Part shown: one piece after another, positions 49,605 to 64,000 of the stretch | Layout of the letters: every line of letters begins with the position of its first letter | Numbering within the stretch: the first letter of the stretch is position 1 | From: Emticicia sp. C21 | GTDB lineage: Bacteria > Bacteroidota > Bacteroidia > Cytophagales > Spirosomataceae | Direction: 5' to 3' | DNA length: 64,000 nucleotides | NCBI RefSeq assembly: GCF_003418935.1 | Contig: NZ_QVMT01000002.1 | Coordinates: forward strand, 496,001 to 560,000 | Notes under the pieces: generated by a model | The model's input: only the letters and a program-made list of their open reading frames with translations | Told to the model about the DNA's origin: nothing | Database searches by the model: none | Program-made: the position numbers and the translations under genes

Positions 49605-50933
49605 TTATTTCACGCCGTCAGCCCAATTGAACCGATCACTTGGCGAAAACTTCCAGGGAGCCATGTTATTTTCCATATTTGAGAACATCGCATTCCATGA
49701 TCCGGGGGCTGATGATTCTTCCATAACCTTATAGCGGCGGAGTTCAAGGATGATGTCTAGAGGAGAGATATTTACCGGACATTCCTGCACGCAGGCATTG
49801 CAGGTAGTACAAGCCAGTATTTCTTCTTCTAAGATATAATCACCTAAAAGTGTTTTACCATCATCATAATCGTTCCCATTTTTTATCCACCCCTTTTGTA
49901 TATCTTCCAGACGGTCGCGGGTATCCATCATGATTTTACGCGGCGAAAGTTTCTTACCTGTAATATTGGCCGGACAAGCTGCTGTACAACGCCCACATTC
50001 GGTACAACTATACGCATCCATCAGATTCTTCCAGCTTAAATCTTTGACGTCTTTGGCCCCAAAACGACCGACCTCGGCAGGTGCAGCATCCGGTTGTTCA
50101 ATGCCCAACATGATTTTTACCTCTTTAGTAACGGCTGGCATATTGGCCATTTGTCCTTTAGTCTTAAGATTAGAAAAATAAGTATTCGGGAAAGCCAGAA
50201 AGATGTGCAAGTGTTTAGAATAGGTAACATATAAAGCAAAGCCCATAATACCCAGAATATGAAACCACCAGGCAAAGCGCTCATAGGCAATCAAAGCAGT
50301 ATCGCTCCAACTTTCAAAAATCGGCTGTAACCACTGGCTGACAACAAAGCTCCCTGTAATGGCTTCGGCATAATGCCCTACGCCTCTTGCCTGCAAAAGT
50401 GTATCGGTGGCATTCATGCTTAAAAAAGCCCACATCAATAATATTTCAATAGTTAAAATGATGTTGGCATCGGTGCGAGGCCAGGTTTTCATTTCTCTAT
50501 GACGACTTTCCTGAAAGCGTTGTACTTTCAGAACATTGCGACGAAGCAGGAATATTACACAAACCGTCAATACCCCAAGTGCCAGTATTTCAAAGAAATT
50601 AATCAGGAAAGTGTAGAAGCCGCCTAAAAAAGGAGCGAATAAGCGGTGTGTACCAAAGATTCCATCCAGAATAATTTCCAGAACCTCAATATTAATAATC
50701 AGAAATCCGGCATAGATAATAAAGTGCATCAATCCTACCAATGGGCGGTTAAACATCTTTTTTTGCCCAAAGGCTGTGAGAAGCATAATTTGTAGACGTT
50801 CAGCAGGTCTGTCTGTACGGTCTTCTGCATGGCCTAACTGAATAGTCTTTTTGATAAGCACTATCCGACGATTGATAAAGTAGGCCGCTATACCTAATGA
50901 TGCAATGAATAAGATTTGTGATATGATTTGCAT
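49605..50933 (-). CDS. Fe-S/heme membrane oxidoreductase subunit (HdrC/GlpC-type with NarI-like helices)
   Basis: A 442-residue protein. It has about five N-terminal membrane helices (at about 4-22, 68-90, 98-125, 160-180 and 220-245) with scattered His residues, as in NarI-like cytochromes. A cytoplasmic domain of the heterodisulfide-reductase C type has two 4Fe-4S motifs, CTECGRCTAACP (about residues 310-321) and CTTCNACVQECP (about 374-385). Such proteins carry electrons between the membrane quinone pool and soluble partners. The usual partner, a CCG-domain (HdrB) protein, is not adjacent. A 30-bp perfect palindrome overlaps its probable promoter. Confidence 0.88.
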   Translation of the reverse strand: MQIISQILFIASLGIAAYFINRRIVLIKKTIQLGHAEDRTDRPAERLQIMLLTAFGQKKMFNRPLVGLMHFIIYAGFLIINIEVLEIILDGIFGTHRLFAPFLGGFYTFLINFFEILALGVLTVCVIFLLRRNVLKVQRFQESRHREMKTWPRTDANIILTIEILLMWAFLSMNATDTLLQARGVGHYAEAITGSFVVSQWLQPIFESWSDTALIAYERFAWWFHILGIMGFALYVTYSKHLHIFLAFPNTYFSNLKTKGQMANMPAVTKEVKIMLGIEQPDAAPAEVGRFGAKDVKDLSWKNLMDAYSCTECGRCTAACPANITGKKLSPRKIMMDTRDRLEDIQKGWIKNGNDYDDGKTLLGDYILEEEILACTTCNACVQECPVNISPLDIILELRRYKVMEESSAPGSWNAMFSNMENNMAPWKFSPSDRFNWADGVK

Positions 50934-50981
50934 AATATTCAGTTTGGATGAATACTGATGGAGTAAGTCTTTGTAATACTG

Positions 50982-51011
50982 TTGTAATGGTATGCAAGCA
51001 TACCATTACAA
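50982..51011. promoter_or_regulatory. 30-bp perfect palindrome in the promoter of the Fe-S protein
   Basis: TTGTAATGGTATGC (50982-50995), AA, GCATACCATTACAA (50998-51011): two 14-bp arms without mismatch. It lies about 49 to 78 bases before the start of the Fe-S protein and touches the -7 box. It looks like an operator for a dimeric regulator; as RNA it would also form a 14-bp hairpin. Confidence 0.85.
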
Positions 51012-51016
51012 ATATA
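51009..51016 (-). promoter_or_regulatory. -7 box of the Fe-S protein promoter
   Basis: TATATTTG on the minus strand, an exact TAnnTTTG, with CTTG about 18 bases further upstream as a possible -33. The palindrome begins inside this box and continues downstream over the start point, a position suited to repression. Confidence 0.55.
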
Positions 51017-51074
51017 ATCAAATTTTAGATAATGCAAGTTTAAAGAAAATTTTTAAGATTTTTTTTGGTAGAAG

Positions 51075-51105
51075 TTTGTAGTTGATTTTTTTTTGTCTAC
51101 TTTTG
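51075..51105 (+). promoter_or_regulatory. tRNA-Phe promoter
   Basis: TTTG (51075-51078), exactly 19 bases, TACTTTTG (51098-51105): a textbook Bacteroidota primary sigma promoter. Confidence 0.8.
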
Positions 51106-51137
51106 CAGTCCCAAAACACGGGGAATGGTGGTAATCA

Positions 51138-51210
51138 GGTAATGTAGCTCAGTTGGTAGAGCAAAGGACTGAAAATCCTTGTGTCGGCGGTTCGATTCCG
51201 TCCATTACCA
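51138..51210 (+). tRNA. tRNA-Phe (anticodon GAA)
   Basis: A 73-base cloverleaf. Acceptor GGTAATG (51138-51144) pairs with CATTACC (51203-51209), discriminator A; D arm GCTC...GAGC; anticodon stem AAGGA/TCCTT with loop CTGAAAA, anticodon GAA; T arm GGCGG-TTCGATT-CCGTC. The CCA end is not encoded. It stands alone without neighbouring tRNA genes and with its own promoter. Confidence 0.97.
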
Positions 51211-51768
51211 CACTGATAATCAGGCAGTTATGAAGCAATTTCATAGCTGCCTTTTTTCTTGGGTACAATATAGGTATCTTTTTATCTCTTCGTTTTTCGG
51301 CAATTATATACAATCCCCTGAAAAAAGTACAATTCACTTAATAGTATAAAATCTCCCGAGTTATCATTTTTAATGCCACATGCACATTATTAGTACGTAA
51401 TAGATTTTAAATTCATCAACCGTCGATAACCTCCCACTTAACACAAGAAAATTACATTTGAGATGATTATTGCTTAATCCAAATTTTCTGACGAGGTAAT
51501 TCTTTTACATTCTTAGGGATTAATAGTAATAGTTACCTCATAGTGCTACAAATCATGCACATCAATTTCTACTTATGTGATGGTCTTTGCTTTTCAGCAT
51601 TTATGCCACAACAGGAATTTTATACATGCCTATCATTTAGAAAATAGAACCTTATTTCAGAGCCTCTCTTTTTATTTTAAGTTTTGGGTGCATAGAAATC
51701 TTGTGACTAAAATATTTTTCCTCTCTATAGCCTGCTTATACTGGGTTATGGTTTAAACCTCAATTCAC
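51211..51768. other. Gene-free region between tRNA-Phe and ferritin-like genes
   Basis: 558 bp of AT-rich sequence. No credible reading frame, integrase remnant or repeat of the tRNA 3' end was found. No exact promoter boxes before 51769 could be recognised. Confidence 0.5.
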
Positions 51769-52482
51769 ATGAAACAACTGAATGAGGGCTTATCAGTCAA
51801 TATAAAAACTGATAGGCCGGTCACCTTTGTTGCCAGACGTAACTTCTTGAAAAGTGCTGGCATGACAACTATTGCAGGAGCAATTTTTCTGGCTGGCTGC
51901 GACAAAGACGATGACCCTGTAATGGCAGGAGATAATGTCGACCTGGGTATGGGCGATATAGGGATTCTGAACTATGCCTATGCACTGGAACAATTAGAGG
52001 CCGACTTCTACATAAGGGTAGTTGATACAATTTTTTCAGGAGCTACGCAGAAAGAAAAGGATATGCTTATGGCTATCCGCGACCATGAAATTGTTCATCG
52101 GGAATATCTGCGCAATGCTTTAGGTGCTAATGCGATCGGGCAACTGGAGTTTAATTTCTCTGCAGTTGATTTCACCAACCGCGCCAGTGTATTAGGCACG
52201 GCCAGAACTTTTGAAGATACAGGGGTAAGTGCCTACAATGGAGCAGGTACCTTGCTAAAAGAGGCCGCTAACTTATTGATGGCGGGTAAAATAGTATCGG
52301 TAGAGGCACGTCATGCGGCGGCTATCCGCAGTATGTTACAAGCCAATTCAACGCACTTTGCGGGCGACGATATTATTAATGCTAACGGGCTTGACCTTTC
52401 AAAAAAACCTTCGGAGGTCTTACCGGCTGTTCAGTCATTTATTAAAAACAAATTAACAGGCTCAAGCCTTCCTCAATCATAA
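51769..52482 (+). CDS. Exported ferritin-like protein (Ferritin_2 type), first of a pair
   Basis: A 237-residue protein. A twin-arginine-like signal (ARRNFLKSAG at 22-31) is followed by a lipobox-like FLAGC (Cys44), suggesting export in folded form and lipid anchoring. The body is a helical bundle with metal-ligand candidates Glu74/Glu77 (YALEQLEADFY), Glu107/His110 (DHEIVHREYLR), Glu149 (TFEDTGVSAY) and Glu179/His182 (VEARHAAAIR), the ExxH pattern of ferritin-like di-metal proteins (PF13668-type). It is 14 bp upstream of a paralogue and clearly co-transcribed. Function unknown; related pairs occur widely in Bacteroidota. Confidence 0.85.
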   Translation: MKQLNEGLSVNIKTDRPVTFVARRNFLKSAGMTTIAGAIFLAGCDKDDDPVMAGDNVDLGMGDIGILNYAYALEQLEADFYIRVVDTIFSGATQKEKDMLMAIRDHEIVHREYLRNALGANAIGQLEFNFSAVDFTNRASVLGTARTFEDTGVSAYNGAGTLLKEAANLLMAGKIVSVEARHAAAIRSMLQANSTHFAGDDIINANGLDLSKKPSEVLPAVQSFIKNKLTGSSLPQS

Positions 52483-52496
52483 ATCAGAGATTTACC

Positions 52497-53294
52497 ATGA
52501 ACCTTTATCATATCATCTCAGAACTCGAGAAAGTGGATGAGGATGTCCACGAAAGACTCAATTATATATCGCGCCGGAGTGTATTTAATACCATAGGGAA
52601 AAAAGTTTCTGCATTGGCTATCCCAACATTAGTGGCCACTTCGCTCAACAAAGCCTATGCTGCCACTCCGGTGGCTATGGATGTATTGAATTTCGCTTTA
52701 ACACTGGAATATCTAGATAGTGAATATTTTACAAAAGGTATCAATACCGCGAATCTGATTCCAGGCAGCGACAGACCTGTATTTACGCAGGTTGCCAAAC
52801 ATGAAAATGAACACGTAGCTTTTATCAAAGCAACTTTAGGAAATAAAGCCATTCCTAAACCGACATTCGATTTTACAGGTAAAGGCTTATTCCCTGATGT
52901 ATTTACTAATTACAAAACTTTTGCTATGGTAGGCCATGCCTTTGAAGACCACGGGGTGCGTGCTTATAAAGGACAGGCCGGAAACCTGATGGCTGCTGAA
53001 GATAAGCCAATACTTGAAGCAGCTTTACGTATACACTCGGTAGAAGCACGCCATACAGCTGGAATACGGTATCTGATAAATATCAGAAATCTGGTAGAAG
53101 AGACAGAACCCTGGATTACGCTTAATGAGGGTACTCCTGCCGGGATCTATACCGGTGAAGATAATACTATGCAGGGAGGTGTAGAGACTTCTGGTTTAGC
53201 AGGCAGGTCAAAAGAAAGAGCTAGTGAAGCATTTGATGAGCCTCTAAGCCGAGAAGCGGTATTGGCTAATGCAAGCAGATTTATTGCGACATAA
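52497..53294 (+). CDS. Exported ferritin-like protein, second of the pair
   Basis: A 265-residue paralogue of the preceding protein. Its N-terminus has SRRSVFNTIGKKVSALA (about 26-42) and a cut site near AYAA, another possible twin-arginine signal, but no lipobox. The bundle keeps the ligand pattern: LTLEYLDSEYF, KHENEHVAFIK, HAFEDHGVRAY and VEARHTAGIR. The C-terminal 60 residues, rich in Gly/Thr/Glu, are not in the first protein. The two could form a hetero-complex with different anchoring. Followed by a hairpin at 53316-53365. Confidence 0.85.
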   Translation: MNLYHIISELEKVDEDVHERLNYISRRSVFNTIGKKVSALAIPTLVATSLNKAYAATPVAMDVLNFALTLEYLDSEYFTKGINTANLIPGSDRPVFTQVAKHENEHVAFIKATLGNKAIPKPTFDFTGKGLFPDVFTNYKTFAMVGHAFEDHGVRAYKGQAGNLMAAEDKPILEAALRIHSVEARHTAGIRYLINIRNLVEETEPWITLNEGTPAGIYTGEDNTMQGGVETSGLAGRSKERASEAFDEPLSREAVLANASRFIAT

Positions 53295-53315
53295 AAATGT
53301 TATGTAGGATGGGGC

Positions 53316-53365
53316 AGTATTAAAAGTAAACGGCGCTCCGCTTTGTGCCGTTTATTTTTAATACT
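53316..53365. terminator. Long hairpin after the ferritin-like pair
   Basis: AGTATTAAAAGTAAACGGC (from 53316) pairs with GCCGTTTATTTTTAATACT (ending 53365) over about 19 bp with one mismatch and a 12-base loop. It is far longer than a normal terminator. Confidence 0.7.
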
Positions 53366-53480
53366 CTATATTGATAGAATAAAATAAGTAACTCCGTACA
53401 TATTCATATGTAAAGGCGAATGATTTTAATGACTTAGTCTTACCTATAACTTTTGCCTATTGTTAATACTAGGTTCATAA

Positions 53481-53512
53481 CAAAAAGACCCGACATTGTC
53501 AGGTTCTTTTTG
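53481..53512. terminator. Bidirectional terminator
   Basis: CAAAAAGA-CC-GACA on one arm and TGTC-GG-TCTTTTTG on the other, with small bulges. T-runs occur on both strands. It lies between the convergent ferritin-like and DUF1264 genes. Confidence 0.75.
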
Positions 53513-53549
53513 TGACTGCTATCTAGTTTCTTGCTGAAATAGATTGCTT

Positions 53550-54320
53550 TCAAAGCATTTTCTGATGCTTATGTCTGGCACTATCTGCTTTGTTGGTAAT
53601 AATAAATTGTCTTATTTCGCCTTTTTCCCAGGCGTTTGCCTGAGGGTCAACTATAGTCATGGGTATATCTTTTCTATTGTTTTTCTTTTCTTCGGTCGAT
53701 ATATGAAAGCGCTTATCTCTGTCTGCTAATAGTTCCTGATGTAATTGCCCGTCTTTGGTAAATCCCATCATAATCATTGGCGCACCTAAAGGCAGTGTTC
53801 TTTGCTGGTCTGTATGCCAGGTATGAATAGTTTTGCCATAGGTAGAAACCAGTTTTTCCATCAATTCATGCTCGGCTAGCTCAGGGATACCCGGAGCTAT
53901 CAGTGAGCCCGATTTTACTTCATGATGATGCGAGTGCCAGAGTTTCTTTTCTTCAGTGGAGAGGGTCTTGAATAGTTTTTCAGTAATAATATACTCTACA
54001 CCCATGAGCTTGGGCTTATCTGTATTTCCATCAAATATAATAGCCTGATAGACGTCTTCATTCAATTGATTTACGTAATGATGTGCTTCCATCTGGGCAT
54101 TCATATTACCATTATAAAAATGGAAACCATCTAAATAGGCATTGAAGTCTTTCAGCGGAGATTTATTTTGCAATAAATCAGCTCCGGTTTCCAATACTTT
54201 ATCTTTTGTTGTTTTTTCGTCTCCCGGTGCATCAATCTTAGATGCAGTATTCTTGCCACCACAGGCCGGCAAAAGCAAAACGAACCCAACAAAAAACAGG
54301 AGAAATAAGATAGATTTCAT
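53550..54320 (-). CDS. DUF1264 (OBAP-like) lipoprotein
   Basis: A 256-residue lipoprotein (lipobox LPAC, Cys20). From residue 62 it matches the DUF1264/oil-body-associated protein family: FHFYNGNMNAQMEAHHYVNQLNEDVYQAIIFDG, LMGVEYIITEKLFKTLSTEEKKLWHSHHHEVKSGSLIAPGIP, KTIHTWHTDQQRTLPLGAPMIMMGF. The many fixed His residues (AHHYVN, HSHHHE, HTWHTD) suggest a metal site. The family is known from plant oil bodies and from bacteria, with no established activity. It is a separate transcription unit next to the glycan cluster. Confidence 0.88.
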   Translation of the reverse strand: MKSILFLLFFVGFVLLLPACGGKNTASKIDAPGDEKTTKDKVLETGADLLQNKSPLKDFNAYLDGFHFYNGNMNAQMEAHHYVNQLNEDVYQAIIFDGNTDKPKLMGVEYIITEKLFKTLSTEEKKLWHSHHHEVKSGSLIAPGIPELAEHELMEKLVSTYGKTIHTWHTDQQRTLPLGAPMIMMGFTKDGQLHQELLADRDKRFHISTEEKKNNRKDIPMTIVDPQANAWEKGEIRQFIITNKADSARHKHQKML

Positions 54321-54384
54321 AGCTTTCGGTTTTAAAATAGCTCAATCAAACTTGTTTATATTTTACACATCAGTTTCCTTAGCG

Positions 54385-55317
54385 TTATTTCGTCCAGTCA
54401 ACCACTTTATGAATTTGTCGGTCTAGTGGCCCCCATCGTTCGGGCTCTCCATCCATACTTATCACTACACTAGGTGTTTTTGTCGCCGCTGCAATATGAG
54501 ATACGCCTGTGCAATTACTGATAAGCATACTTGCATGCTTTATCAACAAGCCTATAGTGCCTAAACTTGTTTTTCCGGTCATGTCAATAACCCGATTTTT
54601 CATGAAATGAATTACCTGTTGTGTGATGGGTGCTTCTTCTGTGGTACCCGTAATCACCACTTCATAGCCATGATCAGCGCAGTAGTCAGCAATCAGTGCG
54701 AAATAGGGGGTAGGCCATTGCCGCCATTCACCTCTCGAACCTGCATGTATGCAGACGTAATGCTCTGGTAAAACGGGCAGTATTCTTTCTTCCCATTCGG
54801 CCACATCAGTTGAATAGACCGGGAACTCCAAATCTGTTCCATAAAGCGCAATCCCCAGATGTTCCATCAAAGCCAGATGTCGCTCAATTTCTGAAATCCC
54901 TTCCGGATATATTAGAAATAAGTCAGATTCCATACGACTTTCATCACAATGAAAGCCTGCAATGGTCGGAATGGATAGGTCTTTCAACATATCGTTGACA
55001 ATAGTGCCTTTCCCTTGCATCTGTAGCACCAAATCAAATCGCTCATGTTTCATCAATCGTTCAAATTCTGCCCATTTCTGCTCATCAAAGGGCTGTTCAG
55101 GCAACCCCTCATACCCCGGGAAATAAATAAACTTATCGATGTACATCGAGAAACGTTGCACAAAAGAGACCGCCCAGGGTAAGCCCATTAAGGTTATTTT
55201 TGCGGCCGGATAGGCATGTCTCAAAGCTCTGAAAGCAGGTACTGAACACAAGAGGTCACCTAATTGTAAGGCTCGCAGAATAGCGATTTTTTTCACATTA
55301 GCCGGATGGATTTTCAT
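54385..55317 (-). CDS. GT9 family glycosyltransferase (heptosyltransferase-like) 1
   Basis: A 310-residue protein of the ADP-heptose:LPS heptosyltransferase family (GT9). It has the N-terminal LRALQLGDLLCSVPAFRALRHAYP, the donor-site part VCIHAGSRGEWRQWPTPYFALI, and the C-terminal CTGVSHIAAATKTPSVVISM. GT9 enzymes transfer ADP-heptose or other ADP/NDP-sugars onto lipid A-core acceptors. It overlaps the GT2 gene by 4 bp, third in an operon carbamoyltransferase, GT2, GT9. Donor is not identified. Confidence 0.9.
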   Translation of the reverse strand: MKIHPANVKKIAILRALQLGDLLCSVPAFRALRHAYPAAKITLMGLPWAVSFVQRFSMYIDKFIYFPGYEGLPEQPFDEQKWAEFERLMKHERFDLVLQMQGKGTIVNDMLKDLSIPTIAGFHCDESRMESDLFLIYPEGISEIERHLALMEHLGIALYGTDLEFPVYSTDVAEWEERILPVLPEHYVCIHAGSRGEWRQWPTPYFALIADYCADHGYEVVITGTTEEAPITQQVIHFMKNRVIDMTGKTSLGTIGLLIKHASMLISNCTGVSHIAAATKTPSVVISMDGEPERWGPLDRQIHKVVDWTK

Positions 55318-56279
55318 AGATAAAAAACTTTATAACGTAGCGCTCCGCGCAAAGTCCAGTAAATAGATAAATAAGGTATCAAAACAGAAGTGGTAATCAT
55401 TTCTGTGACGTGCGAAAACGATAGAATAGTTTTGTGCAAACGGCGTATCACAAAGCCAACTATGAGCAAAAGCCATATCCCTGATGCAATAAAACCTGTC
55501 ACGGGTTTATGCACTATCAAAGCAATGATAGCTGTAACGCTACTGATAACGATGGCGTAATACAGCCAATTAATTTTATTATTGGGGAAAAAGACTGGGT
55601 ATTTTTTATGCAACAATACATCATACAGTGTCTTCTTTTGTTCTTTCAGACTTATGCCCCAGAAAGCTTTTCTTACCGGATGCAGCACAACAGCATCTTC
55701 ACTTTTTACAACAGGAATATTAAAAGAACGCATCGCGAACTCCAGTGCTGAATCTTCCCGCCAGGCAATCGGGAAGTCTTCATCAAAGCCATTCACCATT
55801 CTTAGCGCCACTTTTGTACAGGCGCAGTTAGCGGTTATGAAATCAGCGGTTTCGAGCAGAGATACATTTTTTTCATAGTCTGTCGGTAACTTCGGGATAG
55901 GAACAATCAACCGACCACTCATACAGATATTGGCTTTGTTATAAGATTGGTAACTATCCCAGAATGCCTGCAACCAATCAACAGAGGGAATACAATCATC
56001 ATCTGTAAAAGCAATGAGTTTGCCTGTGGCCTGTTTCCAACCGTAGTTGCGTGCGGCAGCAGGGCCTTTTTTCTTTTTTAATTCGTAATAATGAAAATGG
56101 CTGATTTTCTTTTGCAGGGTATGCACAATGTTTCTGGACGGGAAATCGACCCCATCACCCACTACGATCACTTCATAGTAAGTAGCAGGAAAAGTTTGCC
56201 TTTGTAAGGCAGCCAGACAGCGACTTAGGAGCTCAGGCCGCCTGTAAGTAGGAATAACAACCGATATATAGACAGACAT
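55314..56279 (-). CDS. GT2 family glycosyltransferase
   Basis: A 321-residue protein. The GT-A domain is N-terminal (VVIPTYRRPELLSRCLAALQRQ, GPAARNYGW-type loop, the DxD-like FTDDDCIP, WREDSALEF), followed by two or three C-terminal membrane helices (about 230-300). It is thus a membrane-anchored inverting transferase of the kind used in surface glycan assembly. It is 3 bp after the carbamoyltransferase gene and overlaps the GT9 gene. Confidence 0.9.
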   Translation of the reverse strand: MSVYISVVIPTYRRPELLSRCLAALQRQTFPATYYEVIVVGDGVDFPSRNIVHTLQKKISHFHYYELKKKKGPAAARNYGWKQATGKLIAFTDDDCIPSVDWLQAFWDSYQSYNKANICMSGRLIVPIPKLPTDYEKNVSLLETADFITANCACTKVALRMVNGFDEDFPIAWREDSALEFAMRSFNIPVVKSEDAVVLHPVRKAFWGISLKEQKKTLYDVLLHKKYPVFFPNNKINWLYYAIVISSVTAIIALIVHKPVTGFIASGIWLLLIVGFVIRRLHKTILSFSHVTEMITTSVLIPYLSIYWTLRGALRYKVFYL

Positions 56280-56282
56280 GGC

Positions 56283-57974
56283 TTATTTTTCTAAAAGAAA
56301 TGAATTAATTACTAAGGCATCAAACGGAGAAGTCCAGAAACATTCTATGGCATCGCGTGGGGTACACACCACTGGCTCGCCTCTGGTATTGAAAGAGGTA
56401 TTTACCAATACCGGTACCCCAGTAAAACCTTTAAATTCACTCAGTAAATCATAATACAAAGCATGCTGCTGCCGATTGATGGTCTGGATACGTGCAGTTC
56501 CATCGACATGCCTTACGGCCGGAATTTTATCGGCTTTGTCTTCTTTTACCGGATACACGAAGAGCATAAACGGAGAAAATGAAGCATTTTCAAACCAGTC
56601 ATGGGCGTCTTCTTCCAATACCACAGGTGCCACCGGTCTGAAATCTTCCCGGTCTTTAATATCATTCAGCCGAGTTTGCATACTTGCTTCAATGGGTGAA
56701 GCCAATATCGAACGACTTCCCAAAGCTCTCGGGCCAAACTCCATCCGGCCCTGATACCAGCCTATGATTTTATTCTGGGCCAATATCCGGGCAGTATCTT
56801 TCGCTACATTGTCTAATTTTCTATAAGGTACCTTCGTCCATTGCAGAAAGGCTTCTACTTCTTCATCGCTATAAGATGGCCCCCAATAGGCATGCACCAT
56901 TTCATTAGTAGACTTATCAGATTGCTCATCACTATTGAGACGCACATCTACCCATAAAGCAGCGCCTAAAGCTGTGCCCGCATCGCCCGCTGCCGGTTGT
57001 ACCCATACATTTTTGAACGGACTTTGCTCTTTAATAACAGAGTTAAGCACACAATTAAGTGCTATGCCTCCTGCCAGACATAGATTTTCAGTTTGGGTCT
57101 CTTCATAGAGCCAGTTAGCCAGATGTACCACACTTTTCTCTAATGCTTTCTGTAACGAATGAGCAATATCGAAATGCAATTGTGTAAATGGTTCCTCTCT
57201 TTTTCGTTGAGGTCCCCACCAGTCTTCGGGATTAAAATTGTTGGTCGTATACGTACCATCGGTAGACAAGTGGATGGCTGACATAAAATTATTTGTATAG
57301 AGCGGTTGTCCATAAGAAGCCAGAGCCATTACCTTATATTCGTCAGATGAATGCAGGAATCCTAAATAGGTTGTAATTTTCTCATACAACATACCGAGCG
57401 AGTGAGGCATGTGTACGGTTCCCAGCCTTTTCATCTCATTGCCTTCACCCAGATAATAACTGGTGGATATTTTTTCTCCGCGACCATCCATAATCATAAC
57501 AGCCGCTTTCTGGAAAGGGGAGGGGTAATACGCACTGGCCGCATGCGCAATATGATGCTCTACATAATGCCATTTTTCCTGAATATCTTTTGCACCGATA
57601 AAACGTTTCTGCAGATGATGAGGATATCCATCCTGTACTTGCAAAGCCGCTTGTTCTATATAAGTCAGGAATAATTCATCCCAGCTATGATAGATAGCTG
57701 CGCCATTGGAGATGAATCCTGATTCTTTTAATAAATCAGGATCAAAAGAATAAGCAAAATGGTCGACATCGTTGATGTGAATATCAGCGGTCTTTAAACA
57801 ATAATCGATAGCATGGTAAGGCATTTCGTAAGCTGAAAAGGGAATAGGCCTTTTGCCATGCTTGATATGAGTAAAACGTTCTTCTTCAGCCGCGGCAATA
57901 ATTTGTCCGTCTTTCAATAATGCTGCTGCTGAATCATGAAAAGCAGCATTAATTCCTAATGTAAACATAGGCAT
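56283..57974 (-). CDS. NodU/WapO-type carbamoyltransferase
   Basis: A 563-residue O-carbamoyltransferase. The N-terminal Kae1-like domain starts GINAAFHDSAAALLKDG, with the metal-binding HHIAHAASAYYPSPF (near 127) and later LAGGIALNCVLN (near 314). The C-terminal domain has GRMEFGPRALGSRSILASP and VPVLVNTSFNTRGEPVVCTP. Known members move a carbamoyl group from carbamoyl phosphate to a sugar hydroxyl: NodU in Nod factors, WapO in Pseudomonas LPS heptose, and antibiotic enzymes. The ATG at 57974 is chosen; the in-frame extension to 58028 is hydrophobic and not family-like. Heads the minus operon. Confidence 0.92.
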   Translation of the reverse strand: MPMFTLGINAAFHDSAAALLKDGQIIAAAEEERFTHIKHGKRPIPFSAYEMPYHAIDYCLKTADIHINDVDHFAYSFDPDLLKESGFISNGAAIYHSWDELFLTYIEQAALQVQDGYPHHLQKRFIGAKDIQEKWHYVEHHIAHAASAYYPSPFQKAAVMIMDGRGEKISTSYYLGEGNEMKRLGTVHMPHSLGMLYEKITTYLGFLHSSDEYKVMALASYGQPLYTNNFMSAIHLSTDGTYTTNNFNPEDWWGPQRKREEPFTQLHFDIAHSLQKALEKSVVHLANWLYEETQTENLCLAGGIALNCVLNSVIKEQSPFKNVWVQPAAGDAGTALGAALWVDVRLNSDEQSDKSTNEMVHAYWGPSYSDEEVEAFLQWTKVPYRKLDNVAKDTARILAQNKIIGWYQGRMEFGPRALGSRSILASPIEASMQTRLNDIKDREDFRPVAPVVLEEDAHDWFENASFSPFMLFVYPVKEDKADKIPAVRHVDGTARIQTINRQQHALYYDLLSEFKGFTGVPVLVNTSFNTRGEPVVCTPRDAIECFWTSPFDALVINSFLLEK

Positions 57975-58384
57975 CAAATGATTTTTTAATAAGAGGAAGG
58001 TGATAATGAGGTAAAATGATTGTGCCACACAGCAAGAGAAATGAATTATAGCTCAAGGAAATGAGTATTGAAAGACCGTTTCAAATCTATTTTAATGACC
58101 ACAGAAGAGATTAAACTACATTATTATAAATATTTCTTTTTGTTAGAGCCCAGAAGATTTTAATCTCGGAAGTATGCCACTTGAAAGTTGTAGAAATTGA
58201 TACGCTTAAATTGTCCATCGTCACGAGTAAGTTTTTCCTCCCGAAATCAGGGGCAAATAGCGCTTTCTTAGTTTAATTATATGGTTTAATCTTTTATTGC
58301 AAATTGGGGTCAAACATTAAACAAAATTAATAGGCTGGCACTCTTTTTTAACAAAGTGTGAGGTCACTAAGTGGTTTCGCTTCT
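57975..58384. other. Divergent intergenic region of the glycan cluster
   Basis: 410 bp between the carbamoyltransferase (minus) and the first GT4 gene (plus). It is AT-rich and must contain both promoters. I see no exact TAnnTTTG box, no palindrome and no reading frame. Confidence 0.5.
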
Positions 58385-59365
58385 ATGAATATTTTTACTC
58401 ATGAGCCCAGACTAAAGGTATTTACCTGGCATGTGCATGGTAGCTATCTGTATTATTTGTCACAGGGTAATTACGACCTATATATTCCGGTAAACAAGGA
58501 AAAATCGGAGGGTTATTATGGAAGAGGCGAGACTTTTCCGTTTGGAGAAAATGTCATTGAAATACCTGCCGGAGAGATAAAAACGATAGAGTTTGATTGT
58601 ATTCTGTTTCAGTCTGAAAAAAACTACATGACAAACCAATTCGAGGTTTTATCTACTGAACAGAGGCAATTACCGAGGGTTTATGTAGAACATAATACGC
58701 CAGAGGGACACCCAACCAATACCCTGCATATAGTAGACGACCCCGACGTTGTAGTGGTGCATGTAACACATTTCAATAAGTTGATGTGGCATAATACTAC
58801 ACCGCACATCAGAGTAATTGAGCATGGAATTACCAGATCAGGGGTTGAATACAAAGGCCATTTAGCCAAAGGTATTACGGTTATCAATCATATAGAACAA
58901 AGAGGCCGTATTACCGGATGGGATATTTTTGAAGAAGTAAGAAAGCATGTACCGATTGATTTAGTCGGCATGGGTACTTCAAAATCCGGTGGTTTGGGTG
59001 AAGTATTGCATCCTGACTTACCTCAGTTTCTGAGCAATTATCGCTTCTTTTTTAATCCGATCAGATACACCAGCTTTGGTCTGGCTGTGTGCGAGGCCAT
59101 GATGGTTGGCATGCCTGTGGTGGCTTTAGCTACCACCGAATATGCCAGTGTCATTAAAAACGGAGACTCGGGGTTCATCAATACCAATATTGATGCCCTG
59201 ATAGAGGATATGAAATTATTAGTAGAAGATCGTGTCCTGGCTAATACCCTGGGAATTGAGGCACAAACGATTGCTAAAAACAGATTCAATATAAATCGCT
59301 TCACGAACGAATGGTACGAGGTATTTCAGTATGCCATTCAATTAAATACAATTGATCATGACTAA
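58385..59365 (+). CDS. GT4 family glycosyltransferase 1
   Basis: A 326-residue protein. It starts in an unusual N-terminal part (FTWHVHGSYLYYLSQGNYDLYIPVN) and has in the second half the GT4 (GT-B) signature: SNYRFFFNPIRYTSFGLAVCEAMMVGMPVVALATTEYASVI. The typical nucleotide-sugar Glu is in the FGLAVCEAM segment. The ATG at 58385 is preferred to GTG at 58358. It overlaps the next gene by 8 bp (ATGACTAA). Donor and acceptor unknown. Confidence 0.88.
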   Translation: MNIFTHEPRLKVFTWHVHGSYLYYLSQGNYDLYIPVNKEKSEGYYGRGETFPFGENVIEIPAGEIKTIEFDCILFQSEKNYMTNQFEVLSTEQRQLPRVYVEHNTPEGHPTNTLHIVDDPDVVVVHVTHFNKLMWHNTTPHIRVIEHGITRSGVEYKGHLAKGITVINHIEQRGRITGWDIFEEVRKHVPIDLVGMGTSKSGGLGEVLHPDLPQFLSNYRFFFNPIRYTSFGLAVCEAMMVGMPVVALATTEYASVIKNGDSGFINTNIDALIEDMKLLVEDRVLANTLGIEAQTIAKNRFNINRFTNEWYEVFQYAIQLNTIDHD

Positions 59366-60707
59366 AAAAATTGCTTTTATAAGCGAGCATGCTTCGCCAT
59401 TGGCCCTATTGGGCGGTGTTGATAGTGGCGGCCAGAATGTCTATGTAGCCGAGCTCTGTAAACAATTGGCTACCAAAGGCTATGAGATAGACATTTATAC
59501 GCGCAAAGATGCTAAAGAAATTCCGACAACTGTTTGCTGGCTTAAAGGTATCAGGGTCATCCATATTCAGGCGGGCCCTGAGGCCTTTGTTCCGAAAGAA
59601 GAACTGCTCAATTATATGAGTGCTTTCACCAATAATATGATAGCCTATATCAAAAAATATCAGCTTGACTATGAGATTGTCCACGCCAATTTTTTTATGT
59701 CGGCCCTGGTAGCACACCAATTAAAAAAACGTTTACATATTCCTTATGTAGTTACATTCCATGCCCTGGGCAAAATAAGACAGTTGCATCAGAAAGAAAA
59801 AGATGCCTTTCCCGCTGACAGAATATCCATAGAACAACTAATTGTACGAGATGCCAACCAGATTATAGCTGAGTGTCCGCAAGACCAGGAAGACCTGATT
59901 AATTATTACGAAGCAAACCCGGCTAAAATCACTATTATTCCGTGTGGATTCAGCCATGATGAGTTTTATCCGATGGACAAAACACTGGCGCGCCAGGCCC
60001 TGAACTTACCCGGCAAAGAGAAGATACTCCTACAACTGGGCCGCATGGTGCCACGAAAAGGAGTAGATAATGTTATCAGAGCTTTGGGAAGATTGAAACA
60101 GGTAACTAAAATTAAACTGGTAATAGTAGGAGGGAATGCTGATACCCCAGACCCGAACAAAGATGCAGAATTAAGAAGGCTACAAGCAATTGCAGAGCAG
60201 GAAAAGGTAGTTGATTCTGTGATTTTTGTTGGACGTAAAAATAGAAATGTACTCAAATATTTTTATAATGCGGCCGATTTCTTTATCTCTACGCCCTGGT
60301 ATGAGCCCTTTGGTATTACACCGCTGGAGTCAATGGCTTGCGGTACGCCGGTGATTGGGTCAGATGTAGGCGGTATTAAATACAGTGTGGTAGATGGTAA
60401 GACGGGTTTTCTGGTTCCTCCCAATGACCCCGATATGCTGGCGAAGAAAATACAACATGGGTTGACTAATCCGGCTTATTACAACTATTTATGCCAGAAT
60501 TCCCTGAATAGAGTCAATAAACTCTTTACCTGGGAATGTGTGGCTAAACAAATGCAGCAATTATATGAAAAAGTTATCCGTACAAGTTATAAACCAGTGT
60601 CAACGTTCAGCAGATCTTCTTCTTTAACTTCTATACCGCTGATGGGTGTGCGGCCTGGTTTCAGGGAGCCTCTATATCAGCAGATAAACAGAAATTTGTA
60701 TGAATAA
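59358..60707 (+). CDS. GT4 family glycosyltransferase 2 (sucrose synthase/MshA-like)
   Basis: A 449-residue GT-B enzyme. The N-terminus LLGGVDSGGQNVYVAELCKQLATKGYEIDIYTRK is typical of the sucrose-phosphate-synthase/MshA branch of GT4. The donor domain includes LLQLGRMVPRKGVDNVIRAL, the WYEPFGITPLESMACGTPVIGSDVGGIKYSV segment with the retaining-transferase Glu pair, and DGKTGFLVPPNDP. A 50-residue tail follows. It overlaps both neighbours by 8 bp, so strict co-translation is likely. Product unknown. Confidence 0.92.
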   Translation: MTKKIAFISEHASPLALLGGVDSGGQNVYVAELCKQLATKGYEIDIYTRKDAKEIPTTVCWLKGIRVIHIQAGPEAFVPKEELLNYMSAFTNNMIAYIKKYQLDYEIVHANFFMSALVAHQLKKRLHIPYVVTFHALGKIRQLHQKEKDAFPADRISIEQLIVRDANQIIAECPQDQEDLINYYEANPAKITIIPCGFSHDEFYPMDKTLARQALNLPGKEKILLQLGRMVPRKGVDNVIRALGRLKQVTKIKLVIVGGNADTPDPNKDAELRRLQAIAEQEKVVDSVIFVGRKNRNVLKYFYNAADFFISTPWYEPFGITPLESMACGTPVIGSDVGGIKYSVVDGKTGFLVPPNDPDMLAKKIQHGLTNPAYYNYLCQNSLNRVNKLFTWECVAKQMQQLYEKVIRTSYKPVSTFSRSSSLTSIPLMGVRPGFREPLYQQINRNLYE

Positions 60708-61254
60708 GGCCGTGTTCTTCGATAAAGATGGAACGCTTATTAAGGATGTCCCCTATAATATTGACCCTTTGCTCGTTGAACTCGAAAAAGGGGTTATTGA
60801 ATCATTGCGACGCTTGCAGCAAATGGATTATCAACTAGTAATTATTTCAAATCAATCAGGTATTGCCTTAGGTTTTTTTTCAGAACAAAATTTCTTGCGA
60901 CTAAAAGATTACTTATTAAAGTTATTTGAGATCGAGGGTGTGGTTTTCGGCGGTTTCTATTATTGTCCTCATCATCCGAATGGGAAAAATAGCAACTACA
61001 ATAAAACCTGTGACTGCCGAAAACCTGCTCCCGGCCTTTTATTGCAAGCCGCCAAAGAACTGGATATTGATTTAAATGCCTCTTGGATGGTAGGCGATAT
61101 ACTCCATGATGTAGAAGCCGGTAATCAGGCAGGCTGCAGAAGCATTCTTATCAATAATGGCAACGAAACGGAGTGGGATTTAACGGTTATCCGGACCCCT
61201 ACGCATATTGCTACAGATTTATCAGAGGTCACTGACTATATCCTTAATTCTTAA
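60700..61254 (+). CDS. HAD-IIIA phosphatase, GmhB-type
   Basis: A 184-residue HAD enzyme. Motif I is FFDKDGTLI (Asp9/Asp11), motif II SNQSG, and the C-terminal GDILHDVEAGNQAGC carries the motif IV aspartates. A Cys/His zinc cluster, CPHHPNG...CDCRKP (about 91-107), is characteristic of GmhB, the D-glycero-D-manno-heptose-1,7-bisphosphate 7-phosphatase of heptose synthesis; a histidinol-phosphatase role is also possible in the same subfamily. The glycosyltransferase context favours the heptose reading. Overlaps the GT4 gene by 8 bp. Confidence 0.88.
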   Translation: MNKAVFFDKDGTLIKDVPYNIDPLLVELEKGVIESLRRLQQMDYQLVIISNQSGIALGFFSEQNFLRLKDYLLKLFEIEGVVFGGFYYCPHHPNGKNSNYNKTCDCRKPAPGLLLQAAKELDIDLNASWMVGDILHDVEAGNQAGCRSILINNGNETEWDLTVIRTPTHIATDLSEVTDYILNS

Positions 61255-61263
61255 TAAAGCGCT

Positions 61264-62373
61264 ATGAAAGACTGGCAAAACTGTAAGAAGATACTCTGTG
61301 TCCGTGCCGATAACATGGGTGATCTGATTATGACTACTCCGGCCTTGCGTGCTTTGAAAGAAACATTTGATTGCCATATTACGATACTTACTTCTAAAGC
61401 CGGGAGCCTGATTGCCGGGTGTATTCCGGATATTGATAAAGTAATCGTAAGTAATTTGCCCTGGGTTAAATGTGATAATTCTTTAGTAGATACACAACTC
61501 CAAACGCTGGTCAGAGAAATCAAGAAAGAAGCATTTGATGCGGCTATTATTTTTACGGTTTATAGCCAGAGTGCTTTACCTGCAGCCTTATTCTGCTTCA
61601 TGGCAGGTATTCCCAGACGATTGGCTTATGCTAGAGAAAATCCCTATGCCTTATTGACTGACTGGCTCCCGGATAAGGAGCCTTATAGCTACATTCAGCA
61701 TCAGGTACAAAGGGATGTAAATCTGGTGAATCATATAGAAGCTTTCACCAACACTGAAGGCCTCTCTATTTATTATTCAGAAGAAGTACGGGCATCTGCT
61801 TTGAAAAAACTCCAGGGACTAGGAATTAATCTTGCCAATTCATGGATCATTTTACATCCCGGTGTATCAGAAGAAAGAAGGAGTTACCCTTTTATGTACT
61901 GGATTAAAATCGGGCAGTTGATTGCCAGACAATCAGATTTACCCATACTCATCACAGGCTCATCTGCCGAACGTGAACTAACAGATGCGTTGAGTGAACA
62001 AATAGGCCCACAGTCTCATTCGGTAGCAGGTTTATTTACGATCGAAGAATTTGTGACCTTGATTGCCTCTACAAAAGCCGTAATATCGGTCAATACCAGT
62101 ACCATTCATATAGCTGCCGCTACCCGGACACCGGCCGTAGTTTTATATGCTTTAACTAACCCACAACACACTCCCTGGAAATCTCCACATATATTACTTA
62201 CCTATTCGGTAAAAGAAGCCATCAGAAGTAAAAACGAGGTAGTCCGCTACGTATCAGAGCATCATCTGAATCAAGACCTCTCGTATCCATCTCCTGAAGA
62301 AGTAGCAGATGCCCTAAAAGTAATTCTGCAAGGTGATGATAATAAAATCTTCTCCAGAAATACTGGTGTATAG
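61264..62373 (+). CDS. GT9 family glycosyltransferase (heptosyltransferase-like) 2
   Basis: A 369-residue GT9 protein. N-terminal CVRADNMGDLIMTTPALRALKETF matches the family start, and near the C-terminus are IILHPGVSEERRSYPFMYWIKI and VNTSTIHIAAATRTPAVVLYALTNPQHTPW. It lies 9 bp after the phosphatase gene and ends the plus operon. It is similar in plan to the GT9 of the minus operon but longer. Terminator at 62408-62440. Confidence 0.9.
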   Translation: MKDWQNCKKILCVRADNMGDLIMTTPALRALKETFDCHITILTSKAGSLIAGCIPDIDKVIVSNLPWVKCDNSLVDTQLQTLVREIKKEAFDAAIIFTVYSQSALPAALFCFMAGIPRRLAYARENPYALLTDWLPDKEPYSYIQHQVQRDVNLVNHIEAFTNTEGLSIYYSEEVRASALKKLQGLGINLANSWIILHPGVSEERRSYPFMYWIKIGQLIARQSDLPILITGSSAERELTDALSEQIGPQSHSVAGLFTIEEFVTLIASTKAVISVNTSTIHIAAATRTPAVVLYALTNPQHTPWKSPHILLTYSVKEAIRSKNEVVRYVSEHHLNQDLSYPSPEEVADALKVILQGDDNKIFSRNTGV

Positions 62374-62407
62374 TTATATCGTTTTTCTCGCACAAAAATA
62401 AGATAAC

Positions 62408-62440
62408 AAAAAGGGATATGAAGTAATCATATCCCTTTTT
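62408..62440 (+). terminator. Terminator of the plus-strand glycan operon
   Basis: AAAAAGGGATATGA (62408-62421), loop AGTAA, TCATATCCCTTTTT (62427-62440): a 14-bp stem. Confidence 0.93.
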
Positions 62441-62458
62441 GTAGAAATCCAAACCGTT

Positions 62459-62953
62459 TTAAACATGTATGAATTGTTTAGCCAGTATGATAATCCAGGT
62501 AATCATAAATACTATTGGTAATATCCAAACTGAAAATACCTCCATCATTTTTACATTCTTTCCAGCGTCAATCGGTGGATAGTTTTCGTCGAACTGACCA
62601 GATAAATCAAATTTCTTTTGTAATGAATGCATACTGATACTTCGGGCAATAACGCCAAAAAAAATGCAGATACAAGCAACTAAGGCAGCCGATGGAATCA
62701 GCCACAAAAGTAAGTCCTGTTGGCCAGCGAATATGGGGCTTTTGGCCTCTTTGGGTGCATTGGCTACACTTGCATAGCCACCAAAGAAAAATGATTGAGA
62801 GATAGCTAACCAAATGGTGCGCTGGTTCAGAATATTATGTTCATCGACAATGTGTTGCCGGAACTGCTTATAAAAATCCTCCCAGGGGACAGGTTTTCTT
62901 ACTGGCGGCAGAACGCGCCTTTTGTCTAAGTGAGTAACTTCGTTTTCTAACAT
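62459..62953 (-). CDS. Membrane protein of unknown function
   Basis: A 164-residue protein. A basic, Pro-rich N-terminal segment (HLDKRRVLPPVRKPVPWEDFYKQF), then three membrane helices (about 45-65, 78-102 and 138-158) with RTIWLAISQSFFFGGYASVAN around the first. No family recognised. I choose the start at 62953 (MLENEV); an upstream ATG at 62995 would prepend a short hydrophobic stretch that could instead be a signal-like segment. Confidence 0.7.
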   Translation of the reverse strand: MLENEVTHLDKRRVLPPVRKPVPWEDFYKQFRQHIVDEHNILNQRTIWLAISQSFFFGGYASVANAPKEAKSPIFAGQQDLLLWLIPSAALVACICIFFGVIARSISMHSLQKKFDLSGQFDENYPPIDAGKNVKMMEVFSVWILPIVFMITWIIILAKQFIHV

Positions 62954-63026
62954 GACAGTAAATAATAAAGTTGTGATGAAAAAATGTTTTCTCAATTGTT
63001 ATAAATTGAGATATATAATCAGATAA

Positions 63027-64000
63027 TTAAGGTACCATATTACAATTCAATTTAAACATACTTATATCATGGTCTTGCTCGAATATATTGATGGCAAAAG
63101 TGACTGTTTGTTGATTGTTTACTATAGTATCAAAGTATTCTCCCATGGTTGCATTGCCTCCTGCTCGGTTATAAGTAAGTCTGATAGGCGCATTGATGCT
63201 ACCCTCTGTCAGGTTCTTAAATTCTACTATGTAAGTACCATATGGCAGAAATCTTTGAGACTCTTTCGGATGATTATTTCCTCTCTCGTTTGGAATAAAA
63301 GTAGGATGAAAACCGCCTTTAGTATCTTTACAAAACATGACTACATTTCCTTGTGAGTCTTTGATAGTATATTCAATTTTACAGATAACCTGGTTATATT
63401 CAGGGTGCTGTATATCAATACCTGCACGGGCATTAATTGCATGCGTTGGCAAATCAATGGTAGAATACCCATTGGCTTGTATAACCCATTCGCCGGTTGG
63501 ATAATTATACTGATTTGTTTTACCATAAAACCAGAATTCATTTTCACCGCCCGGCATTTGAGTAAGCAGTCCCGTATAAGTATCAGTGGCTAATGGATAG
63601 GCCTTTGACAGACCAATCAATAAGTTTTTGGGAGGGTGTAAAAGTAACCCCTGACTGGTTTTAATAGTTATCTCATTTGATATCGGCTTGCTTTCTATAT
63701 TACCAGGGGGTACCCAGTCATTGGGCTTAGGAGTTACAACCGGTGGAACATTTACTACCACATTATTACCAGAACCGGAAGTATTTGTACTACCTGTATT
63801 ATTTGGTGGCTGGCTACTATTGCTGGTATTATTTATAGGAGGATTAACAGGAACCAGAGCGATTGGTATATGTAGGGTATCAGCTTTATTACGATGAAAT
63901 ATTTTAGAAACTGTTACTCCCGTATAAATGCCAAGACTATCTGAATGTTTATGAGAGCCGATGCTGTCTAGTACTTTATCTGCATTCTTACCTGCTTTTA
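63027..64000 (-). CDS. Unknown protein with Asn/Ser/Pro-rich linker, C-terminal part (5' end outside window)
   Basis: The reading frame stays open to the window end, so at least 323 residues are coded and the start is not visible; the GTG at 63761 is not a start. The visible part begins with KAGKNADKVLDS and TLHIPIALVPV, then a low-complexity Asn/Ser/Pro/Thr/Gly linker (NPPINNTSNSSQPPNNTG... about 63750-63860), then beta-strand-rich sequence (LLTQMPGGENEFWFYGKTNQ, VICKIEYTIKDSQGN, VTFAINIFEQDHD). It resembles a secreted or surface protein with a C-terminal beta domain. Family not recognised. Confidence 0.7.
   Translation of the reverse strand, partial: KAGKNADKVLDSIGSHKHSDSLGIYTGVTVSKIFHRNKADTLHIPIALVPVNPPINNTSNSSQPPNNTGSTNTSGSGNNVVVNVPPVVTPKPNDWVPPGNIESKPISNEITIKTSQGLLLHPPKNLLIGLSKAYPLATDTYTGLLTQMPGGENEFWFYGKTNQYNYPTGEWVIQANGYSTIDLPTHAINARAGIDIQHPEYNQVICKIEYTIKDSQGNVVMFCKDTKGGFHPTFIPNERGNNHPKESQRFLPYGTYIVEFKNLTEGSINAPIRLTYNRAGGNATMGEYFDTIVNNQQTVTFAINIFEQDHDISMFKLNCNMVP

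Follow-up and report, generated by a model that had tools for sequence, protein, structure and literature searches.

In this work, we analyzed a window of 64,000 nucleotides from the genome of Emticicia sp. C21 (contig NZ_QVMT01000002.1, positions 496,001 to 560,000), and our results favor, with a probability of roughly 0.6, a reading in which seven genes at positions 54385-62373 build a carbamoylated, heptose-containing envelope glycan or glycoconjugate, probably under envelope or general stress. Within this reading, carbamoylation is very likely, the use of heptose is nearly as well founded, and a role of the cluster in envelope stress stands at about even odds. The reading draws on the gene content of the cluster and its conservation among related loci, on the linkage of the cluster with heptose genes, and on the occurrence of a similar set in a host that lacks lipopolysaccharide (LPS). 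An earlier note, prepared from the sequence of the window, had suggested that the product may be a surface glycan or a related glycoconjugate. The seven open reading frames (ORFs) are all intact, and the features of the region are as follows:

54385-55317, minus strand: GT9a, a family 9 glycosyltransferase of 310 amino acids (PF01075, 79.3 bits)
55314-56279, minus strand: GT2, a family 2 glycosyltransferase of 321 amino acids with C-terminal hydrophobic segments, the latter recognized by eye (PF00535, 92.6 bits)
56283-57974, minus strand: CarbT, a NodU/CmcH-type O-carbamoyltransferase of 563 amino acids from the ATG at 57974 (PF02543, PF16861)
57975-58384, no strand: intergenic region of 410 bases common to the two divergent operons, with ATG starts
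58385-59365, plus strand: GT4a, a family 4 glycosyltransferase of 326 amino acids (PF00534/PF13692 in the C-terminal half; GT4-type model)
59358-60707, plus strand: GT4b, an MshA/sucrose-phosphate-synthase-like family 4 glycosyltransferase of 449 amino acids (PF00534, 148.8 bits)
60700-61254, plus strand: HAD, a predicted GmhB-type D,D-heptose-bisphosphate phosphatase of 184 amino acids (TIGR00213 and motifs)
61264-62373, plus strand: GT9b, a family 9 glycosyltransferase of 369 amino acids (PF01075, 79.8 bits)
62406-62442, reported for the minus strand: a 16-pair hairpin just past the plus operon, a possible terminator

The arrangement in two operons diverging from 57975-58384 was confirmed, as was the inventory of five glycosyltransferases, a carbamoyltransferase and a GmhB-type phosphatase given in the earlier note, with which the Pfam and NCBIfam assignments agree. 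The overlaps of 3-8 base pairs (bp) that it had reported held at three junctions (GT9a/GT2, 4 bp; GT4a/GT4b and GT4b/HAD, 8 bp each), but the two remaining ones are gaps (GT2/CarbT, 3 bp; HAD/GT9b, 9 bp).

Both domains of CarbT scored over their cut-offs (PF02543, 224.1 bits; PF16861, 242.7 bits), and residues 12-561 of its 563 were matched by a solved novobiocin-type carbamoyltransferase, with GdmN and TobZ matching as well. The conserved motifs HxxxH, DGxGE, GDxG, GPRALG and NTSFN are present in the alignment with 9s2t and in at least 95% of the rows at their columns among 72 relatives, CarbT having DGRGE where DGAGE was expected. TobZ, GdmN and NovN are thus homologous to CarbT along most of its length and share conserved motifs with it; to our knowledge, they act on small-molecule acceptors and have no glycosyltransferase cluster of this kind. 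The HAD protein is predicted to be a GmhB-type phosphatase, as it reached 151.8-152.2 bits against TIGR00213 (cut-off 149.6, a margin of 2-3 bits), and its motifs FDKDGT, CPHHPNG and CDCRKP (DxD and Cys/His loop) align with the solved GmhB 3l8e.

The best named match of GT2 was EpsD, with 111 bits against a cut-off of 370. For GT4a, Pfam covers the C-terminal half only; a structural model from 26 sequences (predicted local distance difference test 86.4, predicted template modeling score 0.86) matched GT4 enzymes in Foldseek with alignments as long as the protein, so GT4a is a whole glycosyltransferase and the count of five holds. The nearest solved structures to GT4b were the sucrose-phosphate synthase Tll1590 (278 bits) and an MshA-type enzyme (190 bits). 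Both family 9 proteins fell below the heptosyltransferase equivalog cut-offs, GT9a below all of them (best, 75.5 of 185.3) and GT9b with a best score of 105.2 of 134.6 for the RfaF-type TIGR02195. In alignments of their relatives, where a few genomes are present twice, the N-terminal Asp of the GD motif is kept (D21 of GT9a in at least 95% of 83 rows, D20 of GT9b in at least 95% of 74 rows). The Asp of the C-terminal motif N-D-[ST]-G, the role of which is known from WaaC, is absent from the window proteins (NCTG in GT9a, VNTS in GT9b); among the GT9a relatives, 56 of 83 have NCTG and 9 have NDTG, 18 being outside the search pattern. This replacement may reflect another donor or another geometry.

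GT4a was used as the marker gene for finding related systems. A pattern scan of genome contigs yielded at least 595 stretches, at least 580 of them confirmed, and the best 80 were kept for analysis; gene contents refer to 74 retained loci spanning 15 kb or more, and counts of neighbors and of HldE to a total set of 97. Since ORFs were called mechanically on loci of about 21 kb, some of the genes missing in relatives are artefacts. All seven genes were found in 49 of the 74 loci, six in 3, five in 12 and four or fewer in 10, so their grouping is more than chance. Every one of the 49 complete loci lies in Bacteroidota records; the best 80 stretches belong mostly to Dyadobacter, Mucilaginibacter, Chitinophaga, Sphingobacterium and other Bacteroidota, and also include three cyanobacteria, a Vicinamibacterales metagenome-assembled genome and another of anammox type. 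In plasmid records there were 17 GT4a matches, 15 covering at least 80% of GT4a. Nine of ten Burkholderiaceae plasmid loci were read, with seven genes in 7, six in 1 and two in 1; five have the order GT4b, HAD, GT9b, CarbT, GT2, GT9a, GT4a on one strand, and in three (L058, L198, L200) GT4b stands apart on the opposite strand. Similar sets are carried by a Streptomyces plasmid (L060) and by Nonomuraea (L063). The earlier note had proposed to compare synteny across Cytophagales, a placement that is sound for this organism; Dyadobacter, too, belongs to this order (family Spirosomataceae). The set recurs, beyond Bacteroidota too. A search of viral contigs with GT4a returned none, and among phage records one partial match was obtained, covering 34% of the query. 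Across 98 genomes, that of Emticicia sp. C21 included, 61 had any GT4a match and 14 a strong one, and none of ten congeners had a strong match. In the favored reading, the cluster represents the glycosyltransferase core of a cross-phylum system, and the patchy distribution together with plasmid carriage suggests that this system is mobile. A 240-amino-acid SDR adjoins GT4a or HAD in the cyanobacteria (L104, 10974-11696; L130, 10995-11723; L138, 12906-13631) and also occurs in the three Burkholderiaceae loci with a separate GT4b (52-56%) and in loci with GT4a on its own; it appears to be an optional extra enzyme of the system.

The relatives of the cluster frequently carry heptose genes of their own. 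HldE lies inside the cluster in 28 of the 97 loci (27 by clustering, plus L141). In one of them (L095), the adenylyltransferase domain scored 185.8 bits, over its cut-off of 181.5, and the kinase domain (250.7 bits, cut-off 345) and whole HldE (360.6 bits, cut-off 521) stayed below theirs. Furthermore, GT4b has a C-terminal GmhA-type SIS domain in 16 loci (in L095, 199 bits against TIGR00441, below the cut-off of 209.45), and in three actinomycete loci a SIS domain lies beside the set; all 19 of these loci have HldE, and nine further loci combine HldE with the absence of any SIS domain nearby. The fusion partner of GT4b in L054 is HAD instead. With HldE and a GmhA domain added in many relatives, most steps of the ADP-heptose pathway are represented in the wider family, which gives comparative support to the earlier proposal of heptose and carbamoyl groups in the product. 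An adenylyltransferase search covered 49 genomes and 3 plasmid records behind loci, a subset of all. Fifteen of these genomes have HldE at the GT4a locus; 14 of them show no other RfaE2 match above 100 bits and Scytonema has two, and 4 of the 15, all Sphingobacterium, fall below the curated RfaE2 cut-off, with a deficit of 0.7 bits in one and of 12-15 bits in the other three. Among the 34 genomes with no HldE at the locus, 31 carry a single RfaE2 over the cut-off at another place, in G124 HldE lies apart from the GT4a locus with the remainder of the cluster (L160), and G131 and G137 have no RfaE2, their loci showing only GT4a with or without GT2.

The association was also evident in 79 Chitinophaga genomes, the genus of a Chitinophaga pinensis genome, scored for CarbT (at least 65% identity and full length) and HldE (over 175 bits). 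CarbT was present in 23 genomes and HldE in 26; HldE occurred in 23 of 23 genomes with the cluster CarbT vs 3 of 56 without it (Fisher test, 5e-17, relatedness ignored). The two genes lie within 8 kb of each other in 21 of the 23, and in the other two HldE is found with the remaining six genes and CarbT on another contig. Chitinophaga therefore offers a clean test system, as HldE is found there almost only with this cluster. The three exceptional HldE genes are in loci devoid of any of the seven genes. In L152 (9516-11084), HldE is beside nonribosomal peptide synthetase (NRPS) genes and a NusG-like ORF, and a second HldE of G200 (L161, 9743-11233) is beside an NRPS gene and a NusG-like ORF, the NusG-like ORFs being recognized by eye; these two possibly serve heptose-bearing natural products. 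L153 (8537-11005) has HldE next to an NAD-dependent epimerase, an O-methyltransferase and a FAD-binding gene, and L154 (7971-10452) next to an NAD-dependent epimerase, a thioesterase and a penicillin-amidase-like gene, both being other small heptose clusters. An assignment of all three exceptional genes to NRPS clusters was rejected, since Pfam supports it for L152 and the second G200 copy, not for L153 and L154. In G214 (L159, 10304-11931), about a quarter of CarbT and GT9a remain with no strong HldE, apparently a decayed cluster.

The source genome (6.64 Mb in 33 contigs, 99.94% complete) is probably able to make ADP-heptose with genes in trans, judging from profile scores. The search for gmhA, hldE and hldD recommended by the earlier note returned GmhA (contig C10, 245.4 bits), RfaE2 (C1, 196.5 bits) and HldD (C33, 369.1 bits), all over cut-off, and an HldE-type kinase with 322 bits, below its cut-off of 345, which is encoded at C12:478920, at a distance of 16 kb ahead of the window; heptose synthesis genes, the lack of which, together with unchanged glycans in a deletion strain, that note had named as evidence against its interpretation, are thus present. 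The HAD of the window is the only GmhB over cut-off in this genome, a second GmhB-like gene on C17 reaching 128.7 bits. In all ten congeners, none with a strong GT4a match, gmhA scored over cut-off; heptose must therefore serve some other purpose in the genus as well. Among 98 relatives, gmhA was found in 14 of 14 with the cluster vs 59 of 84 without it (p 0.018), a weak correlation because gmhA is common. A second glycan locus was observed at C10:15000-24000 (L038, L039), with GmhA, GT2- and GT4-like ORFs, a GT9 and a DegT-like ORF, some of them assigned by eye.

The earlier note had stated that no product is described for this exact set. Our literature search agrees, as no paper describing a product of the seven-gene set was found, most subscription papers being outside the search; nevertheless, the closest described operon, cwg of Streptomyces coelicolor, had been missed. 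According to the accessible part of its description, cwg (SCO6179-6190, cwgA-L) consists of 12 genes for a putative cell wall glycan, is induced by vancomycin and depends partly on sigma-E (PMC6767563). Excerpts of other papers list cwgB, C, E, G and J as transferases, cwgD as a dehydratase, cwgH as a phosphoheptose isomerase and cwgI as a bifunctional synthase/transferase (PMC5839063), describe cwgE as a putative heptosyl transferase (PMC5882110), and report cwgA as up under salt (PMC13011467). The Streptomyces plasmid locus L060 is a row of 12 genes, namely an epimerase, CarbT, a glycosyltransferase, HAD, GT9, GT4a, GT4b, SIS, HldE, GT9 and two further glycosyltransferases, with some labels taken from annotation. 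Compared by position and annotation, not by sequence, with cwg as described in those excerpts, it agrees in the total of 12 genes and at positions 5 (GT9/cwgE), 8 (SIS/cwgH) and 9 (HldE-like/cwgI). All seven enzyme classes of the window are present in L060 (HAD by annotation), although the order in the window differs; unlike cwg, the seven genes of the window form two divergent operons in a Gram-negative host, and genes for an epimerase, GmhA and HldE are missing in cis. In the texts available to the search, from which most subscription papers were missing, we found no paper tying a carbamoyl group to cwg or cwg to other phyla; the cluster belongs to a wide family of a known kind, whose link across phyla was not found in print. 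One candidate publication on the set (PMC3966863) was set aside, as its text, where accessible, concerns pyrB and LPS genes. A further natural comparison is with the bleomycin-type sugar genes, in which an ADP-heptose-derived sugar is combined with the carbamoyltransferase BlmD; these belong to a secondary metabolite and form a different gene set.

Streptomyces is Gram-positive and has no LPS, and the presence of a similar set there, as well as in Nonomuraea, bears on the best-surviving alternative, namely a role of the cluster in modifying the core or O-antigen of LPS, with the GT9s adding heptose to the lipid A-core and CarbT carbamoylating it as WapO does in Pseudomonas, an analogy drawn in the earlier note. 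The resemblance is real insofar as the Pseudomonas LPS-core set, in the accessible text, combines heptosyltransferases with a carbamoyltransferase and places the carbamoyl on HepII (PMC8005017); in addition, the source genome probably makes ADP-heptose, and the other use of heptose indicated by gmhA in the ten congeners is possibly LPS. The Pseudomonas set, as far as its accessible description goes, also has heptose kinases, which our cluster lacks, and both GT9s miss the LPS equivalog cut-offs. Moreover, the cluster is patchy within the genus of the source organism (0 of 10 congeners), and 53 of the 56 Chitinophaga genomes without the cluster CarbT (53 of all 79) also lack HldE, so the core does not need it. 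We thus consider the LPS alternative unlikely, and the link to LPS heptose was not supported.

The stress component of the favored envelope glycan was addressed through the genes around the loci. Nine families were considered (zinc alcohol dehydrogenase, DAO-Rieske, DUF4142, DUF892, HPII catalase, DUF421, CinA, DUF6766 and Ferritin_2), with 32 arbitrary 20-kb stretches from 32 genomes behind loci as control, these being the ones that existed among 40 chosen. They were found near 33 of 74 Bacteroidota-type loci vs 0 of 32 controls; in single-family tests, only zinc alcohol dehydrogenase, DAO-Rieske and DUF4142 passed p 0.05, and Ferritin_2 gave no match. In held-out Burkholderiaceae, zinc alcohol dehydrogenase occurred at 5 of 9 loci vs 0 of 9 controls and DUF4142 at 5 of 9 vs 1 of 9, but DAO-Rieske at 0 of 9 vs 2 of 9 and DUF892 at 0 of 9 vs 1 of 9; one control stretch (L210) is itself rich in stress genes. 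The source genome itself has a DUF892 gene near the cluster, at a distance of 8.5 kb on its downstream side. An MFS family was likewise found near 24 of 73 Bacteroidota-type loci vs 0 of 32 controls; overall, an MFS gene is present at 27 of the 97 loci, within 1 kb of the cluster in 23 of them. A 55% relative of this cluster-adjoining MFS protein is encoded in the source genome on contig C4, where a companion stress island is present, apart from the cluster. This region (C4:12001-32000, L214) holds CinA (46%), a DUF421-like gene (by eye), the MFS gene (55%), SDR (53%), an amylase-like gene (by eye), HPII catalase (68%) and DUF892 (53%). A function of the MFS protein as dedicated exporter is weakened because, in the source genome, it sits in a stress island without the cluster.

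These MFS data are also relevant to a second alternative, according to which the cluster makes a small oligosaccharide or glycoside, soluble or exported, that acts as a stress solute or is a secondary metabolite and not an envelope polymer. We regard it as improbable, to a degree just beyond that of the LPS alternative. It gains from the frequent proximity of the transporter, from the similarity of GT4b to Tll1590 and MshA and its fusion with a GmhA-type domain or a phosphatase in relatives, from the small-molecule acceptors of the structurally solved CarbT relatives, and from the 37 neighbor families found in at least 4 of the 97 loci, none of which was recognized as a flippase or polymerase, most being judged by eye. 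Conversely, the number of glycosyltransferases (five, with a membrane-type GT2) is high if only a small solute is made, the MFS gene of the source genome may be a travelling stress gene, and cwg is described in the accessible text as a cell wall glycan operon (PMC6767563).

Several observations weigh against a carbamoylated, heptose-containing stress glycan. The stress families were chosen after viewing the loci, and kin loci share neighbors, so the p-values are optimistic; in the held-out Burkholderiaceae, the families together reached 5 of 9 vs 2 of 9 controls, which is not significant (p 0.17). The Chitinophaga test of HldE and CarbT is likewise uncorrected for kinship, and the pattern of HldE in cis or in trans on the GT4a tree is clumped (8 changes, 3-5 independent contrasts, not significant), with L104 scored as in trans although L160 shows that its HldE belongs to a separate portion of the cluster. 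The comparison with cwg draws solely on gene order and annotation. GT4a occurs without the other six genes in L050, L051 and L053, 3 of the 14 strong relatives, and five loci of Sphingobacterium and three of cyanobacteria jointly lack GT2 and CarbT, which means that carbamoylation does not extend to all relatives; HAD and GT9b are jointly absent from 4 of 16 Dyadobacter loci, and these joint losses define HAD with GT9b and GT2 with CarbT as the variable units. No regulator, lipid carrier or polymerase was tied to the cluster. On the heptose side, HAD scored 154.8 bits against the stricter GmhB model NF006506, below its cut-off of 178, and none of 56 matched GT9b relatives (of 74 rows) has the C-terminal Asp of known heptosyltransferases. 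A heptose-free product, with a HAD that does not function as GmhB and GT9s that draw on different donors, would be in line with these two results, with the narrow margin over TIGR00213 and with the second GmhB-like gene on C17, but it is very improbable given HldE and GmhA in or fused into the cluster in several lineages and the tracking of the cluster by HldE in Chitinophaga.

Under the favored reading, GmhA, the HldE kinase, the GmhB encoded by the cluster HAD and the adenylyltransferase would make ADP-heptose, which HldD may epimerize; heptose genes are kept in the cluster in some genomes, and the source genome would supply them in trans. One or both GT9s would then add heptose, GT2, GT4a and GT4b would add further sugars to the acceptor, and CarbT would carbamoylate a hydroxyl. 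An exporter encoded elsewhere would move the product out, the MFS protein on contig C4 being one candidate. A broader proposal, which we put forward tentatively and at slightly less than even odds, is that the Gram-negative Bacteroidota, Burkholderiaceae and cyanobacteria and the Gram-positive actinomycetes share a single glycan system for envelope stress, which spreads horizontally, has an ADP-heptose supply that is either its own or borrowed, and often caps its product with a carbamoyl group. In the actinomycetes this system would correspond to the sigma-E-controlled cwg; heptose in such hosts would then serve a general protective glycan and not LPS. If so, a glycan so far seen only as a regulated Streptomyces operon would turn out to be made generally under stress in several phyla, and many Bacteroidota would carry mistaken "LPS heptose" annotations.

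Regarding the remaining features of the region, the guanine-cytosine content per kb of the cluster (0.37-0.45) hardly stands out from that of its neighbors (0.35-0.43). Terminator-like sites numbered 7, equal to the shuffled mean, and sigma-70-type promoter matches over the whole cluster were no more than expected by chance (20 found vs 22.6 expected); the hairpin at 62406-62442 may serve both directions. No initiating transferase, flippase/polymerase or capsule ABC exporter was recognized at 50000-64000 or in the next 20 kb, where part of the ORFs were assigned by Pfam and the rest by eye, positions 1-50000 not being scanned. Directly upstream of the cluster, at 51769-54320, there are two tandem Ferritin_2 proteins (about 1 kb upstream) and a DUF1264 protein. 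Just past the window, at C12:560801-566107 (L044, 801-6107), lie a fused glycosyl hydrolase family 1/RmlD protein, a UDP-galactopyranose mutase and a GT4-like gene; a glycosyltransferase and one further gene, as found there, recur beside six loci, five of them from Dyadobacter.

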